A DNA stretch of 25,491 nucleotides from positions 1-25,491 of IMG/VR virus record IMGVR_UViG_3300025141_000666; one strand, given 5' to 3'. The position numbers and the translations under genes are program-made. This document shows, in pieces, positions 483 through 23,277 of this stretch. Under the pieces are notes generated by a model that saw only the letters and a program-made list of their open reading frames with translations, was not told the origin of the DNA and did not search any database. The DNA is from a virus. The first letter of the stretch is position 1; each line of letters starts with the position of its first letter.

Positions 483-3244
483 CGAGATCCGTCCGGTCTA
501 ATGTCAAGCCTCATCTGACCAACTCTCCAACCGTAATTCGGTGAGTTTGTTTCAAATACCATCTTCAATTCTCTTGCCCTTAAACGTATATTGGACATAG
601 AAGAAGAAGATTTAACTTTAAAAGAAGAAGAAGATCGTCCAGTAGTACTTGTAGGACTTGTACTCATTGGAAAATCTTGGCCGTAAACCGTAACATTTAC
701 TGCATTTGAATCTTCAGTGGGCGCGCTTCCAACAAACTTAATATCAGGAACAGCCCTGCTCACAAATGTCACATCATTTCCATCACTGATTTCAAAAAAG
801 GTTGACTCTAGAATTGACTGGATACCACCTGAAACATTATTGTATCCGTCTTCGTGGCTAAATAGAGACGATTTTATTGAACTATAATCTACTGGATCAG
901 CATCTTTTGAGTACTGATAAGCTGCAACCGGATTTTGGTTTAGTCCAGAATCAACCCAGGCTGTTCTGTTATTTTCTGCCGGGATGTCTACTCCAGTCCC
1001 TTCGTAGTTTGAAATCGCGTAGTCAGCAAAACTGCCGAAATACCAGACATTCTGTTCATAGTTATACGTAACGTATTTATCTACTTCTCTATACGTATTA
1101 AGCACATCGTTAGAAACGTAGAACCATGTCACTTCGGAAAACGCGCTGTTCTCACCAGCAAAAGACTTTCCTATTTGAGTTTTATCAAGTTCATTGAACA
1201 CGTAATCTCTAACAGGACATTCAATTACTTTTGCAGCACCATCGTACTGGTAGAAATTATTTTTACCCATCCAGTATATGTATCCATTATCACAGAAAAT
1301 GGAAGACAATGAAGATGCAATACTGATATCGTCAGATACAAGCTCGACACTATATCCAGATATCGGATCTGGCCTAAGCCTGTAAAGTGAAGTGTCTGTA
1401 AAGACTATTGTAAAAGCTTTTGCCTTTAACCCACCAACAATATAAGAACCTGAAGTTAGAGCCACTCCACCCGCTGTAGTATCGTTGTCAGTCTCCCAAC
1501 ACAACACTTGAGATGTAACACCCCAATCATCGAATTGAGAACTAGACCAACGTATAAGCATTGGATTAATTCCAAAATCGCATTTGATAACTACATTGTT
1601 ATCTGTACTGCTAGCCGTTCCGTTTGCTCCGGCACCAGTAGCGCCAGTTGTATCTAAATAAGTCGTCGCATCAGATGCAAGTTTCAGCTTAAAGTTACCG
1701 GAAGTTCTATCTGACACATAAAAATATTTATCGTTTACTAATTCTTTAAAGTTATCCGCTCCAGTAACGCCAGTTATGTAAACCATATTTCCATCAGCAA
1801 AAGTATTTGAAACAGTTACCAGAGCTTCTGATGCATTAGAAATGGAAGTAATAGTTCCAGTAGTCTCAGTTTGAGCATCTATCCATCCACTCCCAGTCGC
1901 CAAAATTCCCGTCTCAATTACAAAGTAATTTGCACTTGGAATTTCGGCTGCACTTCCAGTAGAACCAAACACTCCCCTTGTGGATTGAACCTTATAGACA
2001 CCATTAAATTGGACGTTGTTAAATAAAGTTGGCCCATATCCGTCAGCAGTTCCGCACCAAATGGTCACATAATCACCGGCCTCAAGGCCGTGATCGGGGA
2101 GATAAACAAGAGCCCTCTTGGAATCTTGAGTTAAGTGGATAGTGTAATTGGCTGCGCCACTTCCACTCTTACTGATAGTACTAACCTTTCGGTAAACAAG
2201 GCTATCGTACTCATCATCCCAGGGAACAGCATCCGCTAAAATAGGAATTTCAGGAGTACACCCAAGAGCAATAATTTGCTGGTACTCAGGATCTACAATT
2301 ATCTGAGTAGCCCTCCTTACTGGATTGGCTTTGTAAAAAGGATTTTTCCTATCGTCGGTTGTTGGGATTATCGACAAAGCATCGATAACTGTTTGCCCAA
2401 ACAGAGTAGAAATATCATTAATATCTTTCAATCTCGTATACGGAGAAGTGATTGAATCAGTTCCAGTCTGCCACAGGGACACAGCATTCGTAGCTGCATT
2501 ACTAAAAAGATTCTCACCCATATTACCCTGGGACCAAACTCTCAGTGCATCTGATTCCTGAGAACCACCCCATGTTCCTACTCCCCAAACACCAGTTCCC
2601 CATCCGGAAGTTTCCGAATACAAATCTGTACCAGATCCAAGTAGGTATTCTATTTTTGTTGTTGTACCACCTACAGTTGTAGTTCCACTAGTTCCTGTTG
2701 CCGCAGTACCGAGAGTTATTACGTACTCATTAGCATTCGTAACGGAATCAATTTTAAAAACAATCCCATTAAAAGAAGCGGAAGTAAGACCATTCCAAGG
2801 ATTAGTAGGGCTGAAAGTAGGAACTTCGCTTATGAGAACGTAATCTCCAGATTTAGCCCCGTGGTACGTGTCCTTTACGGTTACGCTGGCAGATCCAGCA
2901 GTTAGGGTAAGGGGATCATCTAGAGTGGAAGGAAACCCATTAGTAGTCATTCTGATAGGAGTAACATCAGTGAATGAACTTCCTGTATTTACATAGAACT
3001 TTAGATGCGTACCCAATCCTGTAAACTTTACATCCGAATGAGACTTCCAAGGAAAAATTGATCTACAAGTTCCATCAAAAGTAGTCGGAGGAGTCGAATT
3101 CGTGTACTCACTCCATCCGCCAATCTTTTCAGGAAGGCCAAGCCTAAACCTAATCTTATTAGAAGTGTACCAAGACTGAGGAGTTGAATAGGATGTCCTA
3201 TCCCTAACAATCCCAGGCTTGAATTGAAACTTCTCGTAAGGCAT
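479..3244 (-). CDS. Tail hub / DNA-stabilisation protein, P22 gp10-like
   Basis: About 921 residues from the ATG at 3242-3244, which overlaps the fibre stop as TAATG; a GTG five codons upstream is possible but less likely. The N-terminus (FKPGIVRDRTSY, then KIRFRLGLPEKIGGW) and later blocks (RWSSSQFDDWG, IYWMGKNNFYQYDG, VTWFYVSND, QNVWYFGSF) match the pattern of the P22 gp10-type propeller proteins that close the podovirus neck and hold packaged DNA. T7 gp12 is a functional analogue. Embedded in the first two thirds are three beta-modules: around 2690-2910, around 1910-2170, and a clear one at 1650-1860 with VYITGVTG and VNDKYFYVSD. Similar modules occur in the fibre and the 328-aa neighbour. 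The usual gp10 is about 470 residues, so the extra modules explain the large size. Family assignment is by pattern, not alignment. Confidence 0.7.
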   Translation of the reverse strand: MPYEKFQFKPGIVRDRTSYSTPQSWYTSNKIRFRLGLPEKIGGWSEYTNSTPPTTFDGTCRSIFPWKSHSDVKFTGLGTHLKFYVNTGSSFTDVTPIRMTTNGFPSTLDDPLTLTAGSASVTVKDTYHGAKSGDYVLISEVPTFSPTNPWNGLTSASFNGIVFKIDSVTNANEYVITLGTAATGTSGTTTVGGTTTKIEYLLGSGTDLYSETSGWGTGVWGVGTWGGSQESDALRVWSQGNMGENLFSNAATNAVSLWQTGTDSITSPYTRLKDINDISTLFGQTVIDALSIIPTTDDRKNPFYKANPVRRATQIIVDPEYQQIIALGCTPEIPILADAVPWDDEYDSLVYRKVSTISKSGSGAANYTIHLTQDSKRALVYLPDHGLEAGDYVTIWCGTADGYGPTLFNNVQFNGVYKVQSTRGVFGSTGSAAEIPSANYFVIETGILATGSGWIDAQTETTGTITSISNASEALVTVSNTFADGNMVYITGVTGADNFKELVNDKYFYVSDRTSGNFKLKLASDATTYLDTTGATGAGANGTASSTDNNVVIKCDFGINPMLIRWSSSQFDDWGVTSQVLCWETDNDTTAGGVALTSGSYIVGGLKAKAFTIVFTDTSLYRLRPDPISGYSVELVSDDISIASSLSSIFCDNGYIYWMGKNNFYQYDGAAKVIECPVRDYVFNELDKTQIGKSFAGENSAFSEVTWFYVSNDVLNTYREVDKYVTYNYEQNVWYFGSFADYAISNYEGTGVDIPAENNRTAWVDSGLNQNPVAAYQYSKDADPVDYSSIKSSLFSHEDGYNNVSGGIQSILESTFFEISDGNDVTFVSRAVPDIKFVGSAPTEDSNAVNVTVYGQDFPMSTSPTSTTGRSSSSFKVKSSSSMSNIRLRARELKMVFETNSPNYGWRVGQMRLDIRPDGSR

Positions 3245-5958
3245 TAACGCACCAACCACTCTTCAACGACAGACGATACGTCTCTAATCTTCCTCCAGCA
3301 GGGGTGGGTGGGTGAGCCCTTTCTGATATGGATTCTTCCCGTAAGACCAATGACAGCCCACTCCTGCCTTTCCTGCCTGGGAATATATTCCAGGGACTCA
3401 TCGAAATCTGGATTCAATTCCTCAGTGGATCGACCAAAGTCATCCTTGAGGTACTTGTTATCCCAATTCCCCCACGCCGCATTTCCCAATATACAGGCAG
3501 TCCCAGAAACAATGCCAACGATATCCTTTGGATCGTCACTACTTGTTGCGGGACGAACGCCAGCCTCTACGTCAGAGTTTTCATCGATAACAACGGATAG
3601 GCCGATCCTATCTTCTGCTTCAGGATTGCCATCCGACCATTCAAACATATCGGCATAGTCAGCAAGGGCACTCACGGTACCGCTTACGTTCTTTGTTCCA
3701 CCAGCAAGGTCAACCCTGAATACTTCATTCCCACCGCTGCCGTCATCCGAATCATTAAAGCACTGGAGGAAGTACTTATCCGATGCAGTCCCACCCGTGT
3801 TCTGAATCTTTACATGGGAAGCGCCGCTGGTCGTGTTGTTGAAGTTGATAGTGTGGTTTGCCATATCTCCATAAATGTAATGCTGAGCAGACAAATCGTA
3901 GCTAGAGGGGTTAAATCCAATATTACTGTCAACAATGAATATGTCATTTGCATTGCCGGTACCGTAGTAGGCTGTGTCCTTACCAAGGATAATGTTTCTA
4001 CTGGAACTTCCCATATCCCTGCCAGCACTATTGCCAATGCATATATTATCACTCCCAGTAGCGGCAGAGGTACTAAGCATCGCAGAAACACCGACTGCCG
4101 TATTGTTACTACCGGTAACACCGCGACCCGAAGAGGGACCAATTAATGTATTGTAAGTAGCAGTGGTTATATCGCGACCTGTATCCCAACCAATGCAGAC
4201 ATTTCCGTCACCGGTAGTTACGCTATTACCACTGTTGTATCCAACACAAGTGTTGGAGTCAGAAGCTCCCTCAACATTCTCTAAGGCCAGAGAACCAACA
4301 GCGACATTTTGGTCCCCTTCAAAAGTGCTATCATCTTTCCCGAAAAGAGCTTTGCTTCCGATAGCTACATTATTTGTAATACCAGAGACACTGTACCTAG
4401 CGGCGTGTTGGCCCACAAATACATTCCCGCCGCCAGATCCGACTTGGCGGCCAGCGAGAAGTCCCACTGCCACGTTCGGGTCACTGCCGTGAGTTTGCTC
4501 CACATATAACGCTTGGCGACCAATCGCCACAGACCCGTTTGCCGCGCTCGATCCCTGTCCTCCGAAATTGGATTCAGCGCCAACCGCTACATTGTAGTTA
4601 GTGCCGTTGTTGCAATCCCCCATTGACTTGTAGCCGATAGCTGTATTTTGGTCGTCTGCCTGACCGGTTGCTGCGCCAACATTGGAAAGTGCCTCATGCC
4701 CCACGGCAACATTTCCCTCGCCAGCCATTTGTCCTGCCTCAGATCCGACTGCAACATTGTAAAATACATCCGCACCGGACATCGTGTTCCCGGCAAGGTT
4801 TCCTATAAGAACATTATTTGCTGCATTATTATCGAGAGCGGTTCCAGCAGAATTTCCGATTCCAGTATTGTAACCAGAGCTAACAGTTAGGGAGTCAAGG
4901 GCATTAGTACCTACTGCTACATTATATCCTCCACTCTGATTCGTGTTATTGATCGTGCAAGTGTCAATTGTTGATAACGCTAACGTAGTCGCGTTGATAG
5001 TTCCACTATCGATATCGACATTAGTCATGTTTTGGCTGGCGAAGTTAATCGCACCAGCGGCTTCAAAAGCACCGATCTTACTAACAGTAAGAGTGTCAGT
5101 ACCTTCGGTAAAGGTAAAAGTACTCTTGCCAACCAATCCACCATCGTAACCGCTAAGCGCCTTCGCGTAGGGAACGTGAGTATTCGTGACATTACCCGCA
5201 ACAATTCCGCTAGTTGTCTTGATGAAATCAAACTCCATGTCATCAAGAATGCGGAATACACCATTAGTGTTTGAGCCGGAAAGTCCGTTTGAATTACCTG
5301 CTGCCAATAGGATGCTTGAAAATCCGTTCAGAACATCTACGTAAACGGCAGGTTCCCCATACGCAGTTCCTGTATCGGTGTCCGAAACGCTTCCACCGCT
5401 TGTATTTGCATCAATTGAAAAGGTATTTGCATCCAATTTCGTTGCAGTGAAATATTTATCATTTACAGTTGCAGCGGTACTACCACCTCCAGTGACTCCA
5501 GTTATGAAAACGCTATCTCCATTCTCAAACGGGTGAGAAGCCGCAGTAACAACTGCCGGATTGGCCGCACTTACAGTAGTAATAGCCTTAGAATCTCTAG
5601 TAACCCCATCCTGATAAACCCTAAGCGTCTGACCAGTGCCATTAACTACTAGGTAATATTTCCCACTATTAGTGGGTCCGATCTTTATGTATGACCTTGC
5701 AGAAGGACTCCCCTTAAAAAAGATAACCTTATAGTATCCATTACCAGAATCTTCGGTTGCACTAGGATCTGCGCCTTCTGCGGTAGTCAGATCATACGGA
5801 GTAACTGTGGATATATGTTCAGTAGTAATGGTAAGTTCATTGTAACCGGAGATGCTTGCAACAACCCTATCCCAGTTCTTATTGGTCTCGGTGCCCCACG
5901 TATTTTCATTTCCACCGTTAGACATCTTCAGAATGTTAAGAAAGTCTGTGTAAGCCAT
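3244..5958 (-). CDS. Trimeric tail fibre with YadA-like repeats and self-cleaving chaperone domain
   Basis: A 904-residue protein. The N-terminal 120 residues should attach it to the virion. Residues 125-185 hold a small beta-module (NPAVVTAASHPFENGDSVF, VNDKYFTATKLDANTFSID) shared with neighbouring tail genes. Residues about 345-665 contain 18 copies of an N-x-x-[VIL]-G-x-x-[AST] repeat (NVAVGTNAL, NTGIGNSAG, NVLIGNLAG), the left-handed beta-roll pattern of YadA-type trimeric heads. Residues about 763-904 (ADYADMFEWSDGNPEAEDR, VGIVSGTACILG, GRIHIRKG) match the Peptidase_G2 / intramolecular chaperone domain of phage neck appendages. In that family the domain helps the fibre trimerise and is then cut off by autoproteolysis. 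The start follows an AGGA and overlaps the previous stop (TAATG). It is the likely host-recognition fibre. Confidence 0.85.
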   Translation of the reverse strand: MAYTDFLNILKMSNGGNENTWGTETNKNWDRVVASISGYNELTITTEHISTVTPYDLTTAEGADPSATEDSGNGYYKVIFFKGSPSARSYIKIGPTNSGKYYLVVNGTGQTLRVYQDGVTRDSKAITTVSAANPAVVTAASHPFENGDSVFITGVTGGGSTAATVNDKYFTATKLDANTFSIDANTSGGSVSDTDTGTAYGEPAVYVDVLNGFSSILLAAGNSNGLSGSNTNGVFRILDDMEFDFIKTTSGIVAGNVTNTHVPYAKALSGYDGGLVGKSTFTFTEGTDTLTVSKIGAFEAAGAINFASQNMTNVDIDSGTINATTLALSTIDTCTINNTNQSGGYNVAVGTNALDSLTVSSGYNTGIGNSAGTALDNNAANNVLIGNLAGNTMSGADVFYNVAVGSEAGQMAGEGNVAVGHEALSNVGAATGQADDQNTAIGYKSMGDCNNGTNYNVAVGAESNFGGQGSSAANGSVAIGRQALYVEQTHGSDPNVAVGLLAGRQVGSGGGNVFVGQHAARYSVSGITNNVAIGSKALFGKDDSTFEGDQNVAVGSLALENVEGASDSNTCVGYNSGNSVTTGDGNVCIGWDTGRDITTATYNTLIGPSSGRGVTGSNNTAVGVSAMLSTSAATGSDNICIGNSAGRDMGSSSRNIILGKDTAYYGTGNANDIFIVDSNIGFNPSSYDLSAQHYIYGDMANHTINFNNTTSGASHVKIQNTGGTASDKYFLQCFNDSDDGSGGNEVFRVDLAGGTKNVSGTVSALADYADMFEWSDGNPEAEDRIGLSVVIDENSDVEAGVRPATSSDDPKDIVGIVSGTACILGNAAWGNWDNKYLKDDFGRSTEELNPDFDESLEYIPRQERQEWAVIGLTGRIHIRKGSPTHPCWRKIRDVSSVVEEWLVR

Positions 5959-7367: not shown

Positions 7368-8333
7368 CTACTCCTTTTCAACCCTGATGTAATCAATCTC
7401 AAACTCACCACCAGTCCACTCGGCTCCGCTTCCTTGCAACTTCATTAAAGAGATTCTCAAACCCACCAAATTTCCGGTTGATTCGTCATCTTCACCGCCT
7501 CCATCAGGAGCAATTCCAGCCCATACTGATGCAAAATCATCAACGCCATTAGGGTTGCTCATATCCCATGTCACTACTTGATACTCACCGCTAGACCAGT
7601 CTGGCTCAGGTACACTCAATGATGCGCTTGATATCGGTCTGGTGTAACCGGACTCAGAGCCAGTACTAAAGAACTGGCATTGAAGCTGACCGGTCCACTC
7701 CATAGTAGGCTCACCTACGCCATTATTTGTGAATTCCGCATTTCTCTTTATTCGCATTCGGAGATAGGGCCAATCTGCCCCTGGAAAGTAAGAACCACCA
7801 TAATCGCTGCCTCCCCAATAAGTAGTTTCCATAGTGTTCAGATCTAGGAACAGAATACCCTTGTCGCTATCATCATGAACTTTAGACCACGAACCATATC
7901 GATCGATTATAACATTTTTCTTACCATCTTCTGGGGCAGCGACCAAAATAGTGTTAGAGGGAGTCCACGCAACTATTGCACCGTCAGCCATCCCCTTCTG
8001 CTGACCCCATCCGTTATACCCTGTAGAGTTTCCTTGCGGGGAAAAAACACCAGGCAGCCCCTTTACGAAATCCCATCGTAGGCCAAGACCTGTGATAAGC
8101 CTTTCTTCTTCCAGACCAGTATCTGGCCTGGGATCTTTAACGGCCTGGGGATCATCAACAGGCCAACGCCCAAGTTGAAGCTGAGGATTTTCCTCATCCA
8201 TGCATGATAGACATACAAGAAGTCCAGTGTCCTTAAGATCAGTGTACTGAGGCTTTAGCTGGTGAAGCTTATATTGAAAGCCACATCTGTCGCATACGGC
8301 GATAGCCTTCTTGCCAAGAGCGTAATCGCTCAC
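7368..8333 (-). CDS. Zinc-ribbon virion protein with C-terminal sugar-binding-like fold
   Basis: A 321-residue protein starting at GTG (8331-8333), whose GTGA overlaps the stop of the adaptor gene. Residues 14-44 form a four-cysteine zinc ribbon (C14-x2-C17 and C41-x2-C44), followed by ENPQLQLG and DPQAVKDPRPD, a signature I know from small podovirus structural-module proteins. Residues about 110-321 look like a beta-sandwich: many aromatic strands, a GYNGWGQQKG stretch, and an end GGEFEIDYIRVEKE of the type that closes carbohydrate-binding jelly rolls. In related phages the zinc ribbon often stands alone or near it, so this could be a fusion giving a surface-binding accessory. The sugar-binding idea is inference. 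Confidence 0.6.
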   Translation of the reverse strand: MSDYALGKKAIAVCDRCGFQYKLHQLKPQYTDLKDTGLLVCLSCMDEENPQLQLGRWPVDDPQAVKDPRPDTGLEEERLITGLGLRWDFVKGLPGVFSPQGNSTGYNGWGQQKGMADGAIVAWTPSNTILVAAPEDGKKNVIIDRYGSWSKVHDDSDKGILFLDLNTMETTYWGGSDYGGSYFPGADWPYLRMRIKRNAEFTNNGVGEPTMEWTGQLQCQFFSTGSESGYTRPISSASLSVPEPDWSSGEYQVVTWDMSNPNGVDDFASVWAGIAPDGGGEDDESTGNLVGLRISLMKLQGSGAEWTGGEFEIDYIRVEKE

Positions 8334-9022
8334 CTGTAATATCCACCAGGGACAAAGCGAAGAGGAGCTTTCTCACGATCTTCTCCAGCAGCCCTGTCGA
8401 ACTCCTCTTCGTATAGTTCCTTTAGTGCAGAGACTCGTTGACCCTCAACACCCTTTTTCAATGAAACTTGATAAGCTAGCCCTGCCGCCAAGGCGGGCCA
8501 GAATCTATCCGGAACATCCGGGCCATAAGAACTGCCAGAACCCGTATCTTCGATGCGTCTCATTACATAGTAATGGAGTACATACTTGCTGCTTTCGTCG
8601 GGAACAGGCCAAACGGTTGCTAACGTAGAAGATTGCTGCCTATCTATGAAAACCTGAAGAGGTCTAGCCTTTGTAAGCTTATTGGGGATGCCAGCATATG
8701 TATCCCTGGAAATACGATTTAGGTGGTAATCGGCCTGACTCGAAACATTCCCGCTATCCGTTCTAAGCCACATCTCAAGAACAGCAATAGTGCTTGGGTC
8801 CAGCGTATATTCAGAAGTACCTTCATCCATGTTTTTGGTAAAAGACTTAACCGTCCAAAGATTAATGCCCCTGTTCTGCCACTCAAGCATCATCAGGTTA
8901 ATAGAGCGTCTGGCAGTACGCAGGTCGTAACCGGACTTCATTTCAAGGCCAGCCCTCTCAAAGGCTTCCTCGACAATCTCTCCGATATCCGGGCTAAATG
9001 CTGTAGTTCCTGAAGTTGCCAC
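8330..9022 (-). CDS. Head-tail adaptor (P22 gp4-like)
   Basis: A 230-residue protein starting at GTG (9020-9022) eight bases after an AGAGG site. The N-terminal helical part includes GEIVEEAFERAGLEMKSGY, then TARRSINLMMLEWQNRGINL and WTVKSFTKNM, followed by GTSEYTLDPSTIAVLEMWLR and a C-terminal helix bundle (PDRFWPALAAGLAYQVSLKK). This is the usual pattern of the adaptor ring that attaches below the portal in short-tailed phages and seals the filled head. Length agrees with that family (about 160-230). Its TGA overlaps the zinc-ribbon gene start. Confidence 0.65.
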   Translation of the reverse strand: MATSGTTAFSPDIGEIVEEAFERAGLEMKSGYDLRTARRSINLMMLEWQNRGINLWTVKSFTKNMDEGTSEYTLDPSTIAVLEMWLRTDSGNVSSQADYHLNRISRDTYAGIPNKLTKARPLQVFIDRQQSSTLATVWPVPDESSKYVLHYYVMRRIEDTGSGSSYGPDVPDRFWPALAAGLAYQVSLKKGVEGQRVSALKELYEEEFDRAAGEDREKAPLRFVPGGYYR

Positions 9023-20940: not shown

Positions 20941-21404
20941 TAATACAAAAGTATAGGGGGGTGGGGTATGGGACCCAAATCGTTCGGCTGGAATACAGTG
21001 TTATGCGGCCCGCGACCACGGCCCGGTCTCAGGGGGGGGGTCCCCCCGACACATTTGCGAGAGGGGTGAATTACCTCCGGGGCCAATTCCCCCCAACCGT
21101 GGTCCCTCCGGGGACGCGGATCGAGTGTGGTGAAATCCCCCCGACGACAGTCCCCTCGGGGAGGGGCGGTCCGGTGTAGTGAAACCCCCACGAAACGTGG
21201 ACGACAGGGTCACCCCAGGAACACCCTAGAAAACCATAGGTCGTACCATTGAGTTAAAAATACATGGTTTCTGTGTCGATTTAAGGTTTACAACCTACCC
21301 TCGTTTGCTAGACTGCCTTCATACCGTAGAAATACGGTTGATATACAAGTTAGATACATAGACACTATGCCCTAGGTATAGGGCCACGAAAGTAGAGTCG
21401 AACT
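20941..21404. other. Non-coding divergent intergenic region with hairpins
   Basis: About 460 bases without a convincing gene. The left part is GC-rich with C6 and G9 runs and the 47-48-bp repeat. The right part (21230-21404) is A/T-rich and holds two small hairpins: ACCGTA-GAAA-TACGGT (21323-21338, GNRA loop) and GCCCTA-GGTA-TAGGGC (21369-21384). Long open frames here have a Pro/Arg/Gly make-up dictated by the repeats and no SD. The position near both terminase genes suits a packaging-recognition or promoter region. Confidence 0.55.
21042..21189 (+). repeat. C6-led 47-48-bp imperfect tandem repeats
   Basis: Blocks of C (six, six, six, then five) begin at 21042, 21089, 21137 and 21185, giving periods of 47, 48 and 48 bases. 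The second and third units share GTCCC-type hairpins (TCCCTCCGGGGA, TCCCCTCGGGGA) and a GTGTRGTGAAA end just before the next C run. The first is more divergent. A G9/C6 inverted pair lies just before. Confidence 0.6.
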
Positions 21405-21951: not shown

Positions 21952-22413
21952 CTAGCCTTCGTTATCACCCCTTAGAATCGCTTCCAGCGTAGCCACAATC
22001 TCTTCTTGGCTCTCTGGCTCCCGGGCTTTCGTCTCGACTACATCAGAGAACAGCCCGATGCTCTTACCCAATAGCTCCATAGCTTTCAGTCTGGAGCTAG
22101 CAGTGGCACCTTCGGTCTCTCCTTCTGCTTCCTCTCGGAGTGACCGCAGTACGTAGTTGCGTGTGCCGACAACAGACTTCGCACGCTCCGTTTCATGCCG
22201 TGCCTTCATCCTATTGATGGCCGCATCGACGCCGGGGCGTAGCCGCACTCTAGACGCTGCATCCCTTACGGTCTTAGGCTGGGTGTTTTCCCCTACGGTG
22301 TATACACTACGATAAGCCTCAACTGTTGTGGGATATCGGCCACTTACGATGGCTTCTGCAAAAGCTTGCTCTTTTGTAGACAGATTCTTCTTCTTTGCAC
22401 TACTGCTAGACAT
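21952..22413 (-). CDS. terS: Terminase small subunit
   Basis: A 153-residue protein with the small-terminase pattern. The N-terminal part is helix-turn-helix-like (LSTKEQAFAEAIVSGRYPT, then VEAYRSVY) and recognises the packaging site. It is followed by KTVRDAASRVRLRPGVDAAI and the oligomerisation region (SSRLKAMELLGKSIGLFSDV). Length is typical. It is not beside the large subunit; about 1.6 kb of control DNA and two genes lie between them. The SD is weak. The nearby GC-rich repeats could be its DNA target, which is inference. Confidence 0.7.
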   Translation of the reverse strand: MSSSSAKKKNLSTKEQAFAEAIVSGRYPTTVEAYRSVYTVGENTQPKTVRDAASRVRLRPGVDAAINRMKARHETERAKSVVGTRNYVLRSLREEAEGETEGATASSRLKAMELLGKSIGLFSDVVETKAREPESQEEIVATLEAILRGDNEG

Positions 22414-22429
22414 ACGGAGTTAATAGCAT

Positions 22430-22534
22430 ATGCAAGAACGATACGAAAGGCAGAAGTGGATCTGCCCCCGATGTGGGAAAGATCCAGTAGCCTGCACTAA
22501 AAACAATTTCAGAGAGCCCCGCTGTAGGGGCTAG
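22430..22534 (+). CDS. Possible 34-aa zinc-finger-like peptide
   Basis: A short frame with ATG at 22430 and a GGAG site 10 bases upstream encodes 34 residues. It has four cysteines (C12, C15, C22, C32) in the order CPRCG, ACT and PRCRG, close to a zinc-knuckle or ribbon. The stop lies in the 3' arm of a hairpin (AGCCCC/GGGGCT, 22515-22532). It is divergent from the small terminase, 16 bases away. Small size makes chance possible. Confidence 0.45.
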   Translation: MQERYERQKWICPRCGKDPVACTKNNFREPRCRG

Positions 22535-22540
22535 ATTTAT

Positions 22541-22735
22541 GCGCTCCATGGTCTAATAAGGACGCCGCCAGACGGGCATATGCCAGATCATTCTAGAACG
22601 GGATCTGGTGTTAAACCGCGATGGGATTAGTCACCACCTGCCTGTCAAAGGTGAGTACTGACTACACTTGCTCCCGATAGTAAGGGCGCGAGGGCGGGGG
22701 CGAGAAGTCCGGGTAGCCAATCCCGGTGGGGCGCA
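22541..22735 (+). ncRNA. tRNA-like RNA with about 120-nt insert, copy 1
   Basis: GCGCTCC (22541-22547) pairs with GGGGCGC (22728-22734), seven bp with one wobble, followed by A. A D-arm-like stem is GTCT/GGAC (22551-22554, 22560-22563). CCGCC (22565-22569) pairs with GGCGG (22693-22697) as an anticodon stem, and CCGGG/CCCGG (22709-22713, 22722-22726) is a T-arm-like stem. The T-loop (TAGCCAAT) is not the usual TTCRA and the D-loop lacks GG, so this copy is degenerate. The 123 bases inside the anticodon stem have hairpins of their own (for example CCAGATC/GATCTGG). It is not an ordinary tRNA and no anticodon with U33 can be read. Confidence 0.4.
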
Positions 22736-22835
22736 CCTTGCATACTGGGGTCATCCGAAAGAAGCCCAGGTAATGAGTGTCGCGAGACTAGGGTTAAGGG
22801 TGGAACCTCACGGCACTAACCCCGATACATTTTAT

Positions 22836-23028
22836 GCCTCATCGTCTAATGGGCAAAGACACCGCAAAATATGTGTACGGCGAAAGATACAAGTTCGGCA
22901 CATAGGACTAGCCATCCCGGGCCTAAGCTAAAGCTAAGCATGGCTAGCTTAGCTACTGGCTGGCGGATCAACGATGCCAGTTGAGCAGGCTTGAGCGGAA
23001 ACCTACGGTTCGACTCCGTAGTGGGGCG
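22836..23028 (+). ncRNA. tRNA-like RNA with about 120-nt insert, copy 2
   Basis: GCCTCAT (22836-22842) pairs with GTGGGGC (23021-23027), seven bp with two wobbles. The D-stem is GTCT/AGAC (22844-22847, 22857-22860) with GGG in its loop. The anticodon stem is CCGC/GCGG (22862-22865, 22995-22998), the variable loop has 5 bases, and the T-arm is canonical (TACGG, TTCGACT, CCGTA; 23004-23020). Inside the anticodon arm are 129 bases instead of about 9, with three hairpins of their own, such as CTAGCCAT/ATGGCTAG and ACTGGC/GCCAGT. Only one base separates acceptor and D stem, and no CCA is encoded. It may be a tRNA with an intervening sequence or a tRNA-shaped regulatory RNA; which one is unknown. 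Confidence 0.5.
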
Positions 23029-23046
23029 ACTCAATTTCCAGGGAAA

Positions 23047-23066
23047 GCACCACCCTTAAATGGTGC
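23047..23066 (+). other. Hairpin in leader of the first early gene
   Basis: GCACCA and TGGTGC form a 6-bp stem with an 8-base loop, about 20 bases before the ATG at 23089. It could be the end of the RNA region or a leader element. Confidence 0.35.
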
Positions 23067-23088
23067 ATGACATGAAGGGTATATAAGC

Positions 23089-23277
23089 ATGAAGTTCTCA
23101 CTAGGCGAGAACGTAGAGGCTGACCTGAAGGGTGACATCCTCACCCTGAAGCTCGATCTCACGAAGCGCATGGGTCCGTCCAAGAGCGGCAAGACCCAGA
23201 TCGTGGCTACCTCTGCCGGTCCGCAGCCCATCGGCTCGACCGGCATCAAGGTGGGGCTCAACGTCTTCACCAAGTAG
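23089..23277 (+). CDS. Small conserved phage early protein (62 aa)
   Basis: A 62-residue protein (start KFSLGENVEADLKGDILTL) with a second part SKSGKTQIVATSAGPQPIGS then TGIKVGLNVFTK. It is beta-rich with alternating strands, and I know similar small proteins from phages, without a function. An AAGGG lies 9 bases before the ATG. It ends 45 bases before a transcription terminator, so it probably has its own short transcript. Confidence 0.65.
   Translation: MKFSLGENVEADLKGDILTLKLDLTKRMGPSKSGKTQIVATSAGPQPIGSTGIKVGLNVFTK

Follow-up and report, generated by a model that had tools for sequence, protein, structure and literature searches.

The window analysed here, the whole 25,491-base stretch, is an IMG/VR virus record that we read as a marine tailed phage. 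Its large terminase stands at 55% to that of Pelagibacter phage HTVC027P and has close relatives within IMG/VR. The minus strand carries structural genes, and ARAGORN reports zero tRNAs across the whole window. Two tRNA-shaped elements sit in the gap between the small terminase gene TerS and a 62-aa gene on the opposite strand (Table 1). An 84-nt middle segment separates them. It contains the hairpins CTGGG/CCCAG and GGGTTA/TAACCC and a GTC-GCGA-GAC turn, has no match in the databases, and shows 4 changes relative to L002, the one other IMG/VR contig with element 1, whose terminase is 96% identical.

Table 1. Features of the TerS–62-aa gene intergenic region (positions in the window)
Feature	Position	Strand	Comparison or support
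TerS, small terminase gene	21952-22413	minus	
Element 2, homologous, more degenerate tRNA-shaped shell with 123-nt insert	22540-22735	plus	
Element 2 insert, 123 nt, three predicted hairpins	22570-22692	plus	
Middle segment between elements 2 and 1, structured	22741-22824	plus	conserved in comparison with L002
Element 1, whole predicted RNA, tRNA-Glu-like shell with 129-nt insert in the anticodon stem	22835-23029	plus	conserved in L002
Element 1, 5' half: acceptor strand, D-arm, anticodon-stem strand CCGC	22835-22865	plus	
Element 1 insert, 129 nt	22866-22994	plus	
Insert hairpin A, TATGTG...CACATA	22870-22904	plus	stem kept, loop differs in L002
TAGCCAT, predicted pseudoknot partner of the hairpin B loop	22909-22915	plus	p about 0.009 vs shuffles
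Insert hairpin B, AGCTAAGC-ATGGCTA-GCTTAGCT	22932-22954	plus	
Insert hairpin C, ACTGG...CCAGT	22955-22981	plus	15-nt indel in the loop in L002
Element 1, 3' half: GCGG, variable loop, T-arm, acceptor strand	22995-23029	plus	
62-aa gene, function unassigned	23089-23277	plus	

Other features of the window are noted in passing. A 34-aa ORF with a CPRCG motif (MQERYERQKWICPRCG...) occupies 22430-22534, and the equivalent site in L002 holds a different 32-aa ORF with CPKC; beside the RNAs these are possibly a rapidly changing mini zinc-ribbon protein. The stretch 20950-21200 reaches a GC content of up to 68% in a lower-GC surrounding region, with long G and C runs and the repeated hairpins CTCCGGGGAC and CCCTCGGGGAGG. 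Pfam places an autoproteolytic Peptidase_G2 domain (E 7e-27) close to the C-terminus of a 904-aa tail-fibre-like protein (3244-5958, minus strand).

The tRNA-shaped RNA at 22835-23029, first described in an initial annotation of this DNA, is real, and all parts and coordinates given there (acceptor stem, D-stem with GGG, CCGC/GCGG, T-arm) were re-found. The acceptor pairs TGCCTCA (22835-22841) with TGGGGCG (23022-23028); the register drawn originally, GCCTCAT with GTGGGGC, is equivalent. The D-stem is formed by GTCT (22844-22847) and AGAC (22857-22860) around a 9-nt loop containing GGG, and the T-stem by CTACGG (23003-23008) and CCGTAG (23016-23021) around the loop TTCGACT. The anticodon stem is reduced to a 4-bp remnant of CCGC (22862-22865) and GCGG (22995-22998). 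The shell is a cloverleaf with GG in the D-arm and TTCRA in the T-loop, as in a tRNA. Neither element has a 7-nt anticodon loop on a 5-bp stem, and inserts of 129 and 123 nt are found instead. The count of 129 enclosed bases in the annotation is exact, while the "120-base" insertion of its heading was loose. It was right about element 1 and overlooked the homologous element of equal length at 22540-22735.

When the insert is swapped for a standard loop, ARAGORN calls the shell of element 1 a tRNA-Glu. An exact pattern of the 5' half (GCCTCATCGTCTAATGG, 2-3 free bases, A, one free base, GACACCGC) was scanned over 84,980 prokaryotic genomes and is found at three loci, all alphaproteobacterial and 3/3 inside genuine tRNA-Glu(UUC) genes, with agreement at every specified letter of the 26-letter pattern. 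The acceptor in these three genes reads GGCCTCA, followed by T8 and C9, which supports our register for the phage, with TGCCTCA as acceptor, T8 and C9 in their canonical places and one extra pair in the T-stem. Judged by these matches, the shell of element 1 is descended from a tRNA, beyond mere resemblance in shape. It shares with bacterial tRNA-Glu the acceptor, the D-arm, a short variable loop and the T-arm. Unlike bacterial tRNA-Glu, it has no anticodon loop and carries the insert in its place, the acceptor and T stems stack to 13 bp (12 normally), and CCA is not encoded.

Element 2 repeats this layout in a more degenerate form, with a 10-bp acceptor, a D-stem with a 5-nt loop, an anticodon-stem remnant CCGCC/GGCGG and a long variable arm. 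Its D-loop is without G18G19, its T-loop is non-canonical and lacks TTCRA, and ARAGORN makes no tRNA call on its shell with a standard loop. What persists in element 2 therefore seems to be the cloverleaf and not the ability to decode. The core length is identical in both elements, exactly 192 nt. Their 5' halves are homologous (A-TTTATGC..CT.CAT.GTCTAAT...GAC.CCGC; 0/2000 shuffles as good), and their 3' halves have only the acceptor strand GTGGGGCG in common and are otherwise not alignable. The sequences support an origin of the pair by duplication. L002 is without element 2, and the preceding small ORF there runs straight into the middle segment; from this clean absence we take element 2 to be a discrete unit that would be gained or lost whole.

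In both inserts folding predicts three hairpins on the anticodon stem, in agreement with the earlier description of the enclosed 129 bases of element 1 as forming their own hairpins (A, B and C in Table 1). Complementarity between a strand and a loop is common to both inserts. The seven-base loop of hairpin B in element 1 is the exact complement of the upstream TAGCCAT, and in element 2 GACGGGCA (22571-22578) can pair with the loop TGCCTGTC (22639-22646; p about 0.024 vs shuffles). In L002, 6/7 pairs of the element 1 pseudoknot are kept and one is lost. At these p values the pseudoknots in both inserts are weakly supported, and we treat them as hints.

Comparison with L002 separates shell from insert. 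The 5' half of element 1 has 0 changes, and the 3' half has a single one, G to A at 23028, which converts U-G to U-A and keeps the pair; this amounts to 1 change in 66 nt of shell, while adjacent genes are 1.6-6.8% different. The insert, about 144 nt long in L002, differs by eight substitutions and two indel regions, the indels lying in insert loops. Hairpins A and C are changed in their loops, and the other changed positions are 22924, which is unpaired in the model, and 22940 in the loop of hairpin B. All 46 of the 46 proposed pairs of element 1 are kept, with one compatible change. Minus-strand coding was considered and rejected, as the only long antisense ORF across element 1 (62 aa) is interrupted by stops in L002. 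Read forward, the insert has different frames in the two contigs, with neither a tag ending nor a peptide-like frame in common. On this comparison, element 1 is non-coding and its conserved feature is RNA structure; the insert is structured and tolerates change mainly in loops. Covariation evidence is weak, because there are only two sequences of element 1, from one lineage, and one of element 2.

When the window is scanned on both strands for structure only, element 2 comes first with a score of 59.9, and all other sites reach at most 51.7. Element 1 is second with 51.7, tied with one unrelated chance site on the minus strand. Neither score was reached by shuffled sequence (0/500 dinucleotide shuffles for element 1, 0/500 shuffles for element 2). 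Owing to the tie on structure alone, the statistical case for element 1 is built on structure together with the tRNA letters GGG and TTCGA. A motif-aware scan covered about 0.8 Mb of related virus loci on both strands, plus shuffles; element 1 and its copy in L002 score 29.5, other real sites at most 25.0 and shuffles at most 24.0. The folding energy of element 1 is only mildly unusual (z -1.7); the z-score of element 2 is -2.7.

Known families and further relatives were sought widely. Rfam returns no family for 22400-23100, either at the gathering threshold or at E<=10, with introns, tmRNA and known ribozymes included. ARAGORN makes no call on either element with its default, intron and tmRNA options; a relaxed score produced hundreds of meaningless calls, which were discarded. 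Phage and plasmid records give no BLAST match to the region. When IMG/VR was scanned with patterns for the middle segment, for the core of the insert and for a shell interrupted by 105-135 nt, no relative beyond L002 appeared; exact patterns of this kind reach close relatives only and do not imply that the elements are absent elsewhere. The insert core does not occur across GTDB genomes, and among 40 terminase-related virus records the region is found in L002 only. A scan of IMG/VR with the 5' half only returns L002, one ordinary tRNA-Glu and one match without a surrounding tRNA. Several candidates were set aside: prophage tandem tRNA-Glu/tRNA-Asp pairs from the IMG/VR pattern scans were rejected with ARAGORN, matches with a 136-166-nt gap are mostly ordinary tRNAs side by side, and a 16-nt match from a 34.7-kb virus record falls within a 696-aa frame and is a chance hit.

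The initial annotation offered a choice between a tRNA with an intervening sequence and a new tRNA-like RNA. The former would make element 1 a phage tRNA-Glu gene with an unusually small intron, self-splicing or enzymatic, whose splicing would restore a functional tRNA. The anticodon region is the classic insertion site of tRNA introns, the shell is a nearly perfect tRNA-Glu, and the insert is structured with variable peripheral loops, as introns are. Yet we consider this explanation unlikely. Group I introns are usually longer than 129 nt, no group I or group II model of Rfam matches at E<=10, and visual inspection of the two inserts and the middle segment does not show group I core elements in order, as the first reading of the sequence had noted for element 1. 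Only 1/76 exon joints of element 1 gives an ARAGORN tRNA, with the odd anticodon AUA and a base other than G ahead of the 3' exon, and 0/51 joints of element 2 give one. None of these joints appears to produce a credible tRNA, and splicing would not turn element 2 into a normal, decoding tRNA. According to a 2014 review, every phage group I intron known at that time lay in a protein gene (PMC3984707), so that an intron in a phage tRNA would be unusual. Element 1 has the interruption in the anticodon region in common with tRNA genes that contain group I introns (PMC3984707), but unlike these it is too short, matches no intron model and appears to yield no credible spliced product. The intron half of the original choice is thus the weak one; the other half, a new tRNA-like non-coding RNA, agrees with the evidence, and its regulatory role would be putative. 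In tmRNA, the D-stem is absent, the acceptor carries a G3-U70 pair and a tag reading frame ends in a stop. Element 1 has a genuine D-stem (GTCT/AGAC) with a GGG loop, its third acceptor pair is C-G instead of G3-U70, no tag frame is conserved, and neither the Rfam nor the ARAGORN tmRNA models match it, which bears out the earlier decision to set tmRNA aside. A tmRNA-like RNA that lacks a CDS and disturbs ribosome rescue would share tRNA-like ends and a pseudoknot-type insert with the elements, and it has a phage precedent in mycobacteriophage DS6A, whose tag-less tmRNA-like RNA is reported to inhibit host tmRNA in E. coli (PMC11915505). However, DS6A-type forms are far shorter than element 1 (PMC11915505), and with the differences from tmRNA just named we judge this origin distinctly improbable.

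The missing CCA, the extra stack pair, the degeneracy of element 2 and its absence from L002 could also be expected of relics, that is, of former phage tRNA-Glu genes that were inactivated by insertions and are now drifting. Against such decay, the one shell change is compatible with pairing, no proposed stem is broken, and the rate of change in the shell is at or below that of the adjacent genes, unlike free drift; relics therefore seem an improbable account. A DNA-level element, such as a packaging, replication or recombination site beside TerS whose inverted repeats only mimic a cloverleaf, would agree with the position between TerS and the next gene and beside an almost invariant segment. 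The T-loop TTCGACT, the GGG of the D-loop and the long exact match of the 5' half to real tRNA-Glu are RNA signatures, and they leave a DNA site very unlikely.

We lean towards the view that the region encodes two tandem non-coding RNAs, in which a tRNA-derived shell scaffolds a structured, probably pseudoknotted cargo. More tentatively, they may represent a new class of phage non-coding RNA, in which a duplicated tRNA-Glu-derived shell would display a pseudoknotted effector RNA by way of host tRNA maturation. The anticodon loop of a tRNA-Glu-type gene would have given way to about 125 nt that fold on their own, with the middle-hairpin loop of each insert predicted to be captured by an upstream strand. 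The RNAs would be transcribed inside a plus-strand operon leading to the 62-aa gene, excised and trimmed by RNase P and the 3' tRNA maturation path of the host, and stabilized and protected by the closed acceptor/T stack. The functional portion would be the insert, a stable structural RNA that would work in trans by binding either a protein or a nucleic acid; engineered tRNA scaffolds operate along these lines. Both the processing by tRNA enzymes and the trans-acting role of the cargo are inferred by analogy. Points against a scaffold are the folding z-score of element 1, the lack of an encoded CCA, the stack that is one pair too long, the small number of sequences for covariation and the weak support for the pseudoknots.

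To our knowledge, tmRNA apart, RNAs in which a large structured domain replaces the anticodon arm are known mainly as laboratory constructs. Natural precedents for the layout proposed here are tmRNA and the tag-less tmRNA-like RNA of phage DS6A (PMC11915505). Engineered tRNA scaffolds that carry RNA in place of the anticodon arm are made efficiently and are stable in E. coli (PMC3753655). The elements described here share with them the replacement of the anticodon arm of a tRNA-like shell by a foreign structured RNA; in contrast to the engineered scaffold (PMC3753655), they are natural, phage-borne and arranged in tandem, and their processing and stability are putative. If the scaffold reading is true, a phage evolved the same layout twice side by side, and tRNA processing can be hijacked to produce effector RNAs that are stable. 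The same reading would also account for the failure of tRNA finders and Rfam to pick up genes of this kind, and it would provide a clear search target in phage genomes.

Other tRNA-like RNAs occur in further contigs. Near the 136-166-nt gap matches in tRNA-rich virus contigs, some over 300 kb, we find RNAs of about 120 nt (L129 and L132, both minus strand, L140, L152, L160, L161 and L182). Their 5' part comprises an acceptor with encoded CCA and a D-arm GTCTAATGG..GGAC, followed by about 45 extra bases (CACTT..AAGTG, ACTCT..AGAGT, TTCAGCA); their 3' part comprises an arm TTCC-ATGTCAA-GGAA, which resembles a GUC anticodon arm, and then the T-arm. They resemble tRNAs into which extra sequence has been inserted between the D-arm and the anticodon arm. 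They escape ARAGORN, and the L152 copy is not among the best 150 Rfam matches. L154 contains a strong GOLLD RNA (309 bits) and a tmRNA (5334-5743 and 8020-8417) less than 3 kb apart, beside a tRNA cluster. In L120 (about 4178-4275), a stretch of 84 nt directly follows a gene distantly homologous (42%) to the 62-aa gene; it is closed by an 11-bp stem and encloses a T-arm-like hairpin, GGGG-TGCGAGT-CCCC.
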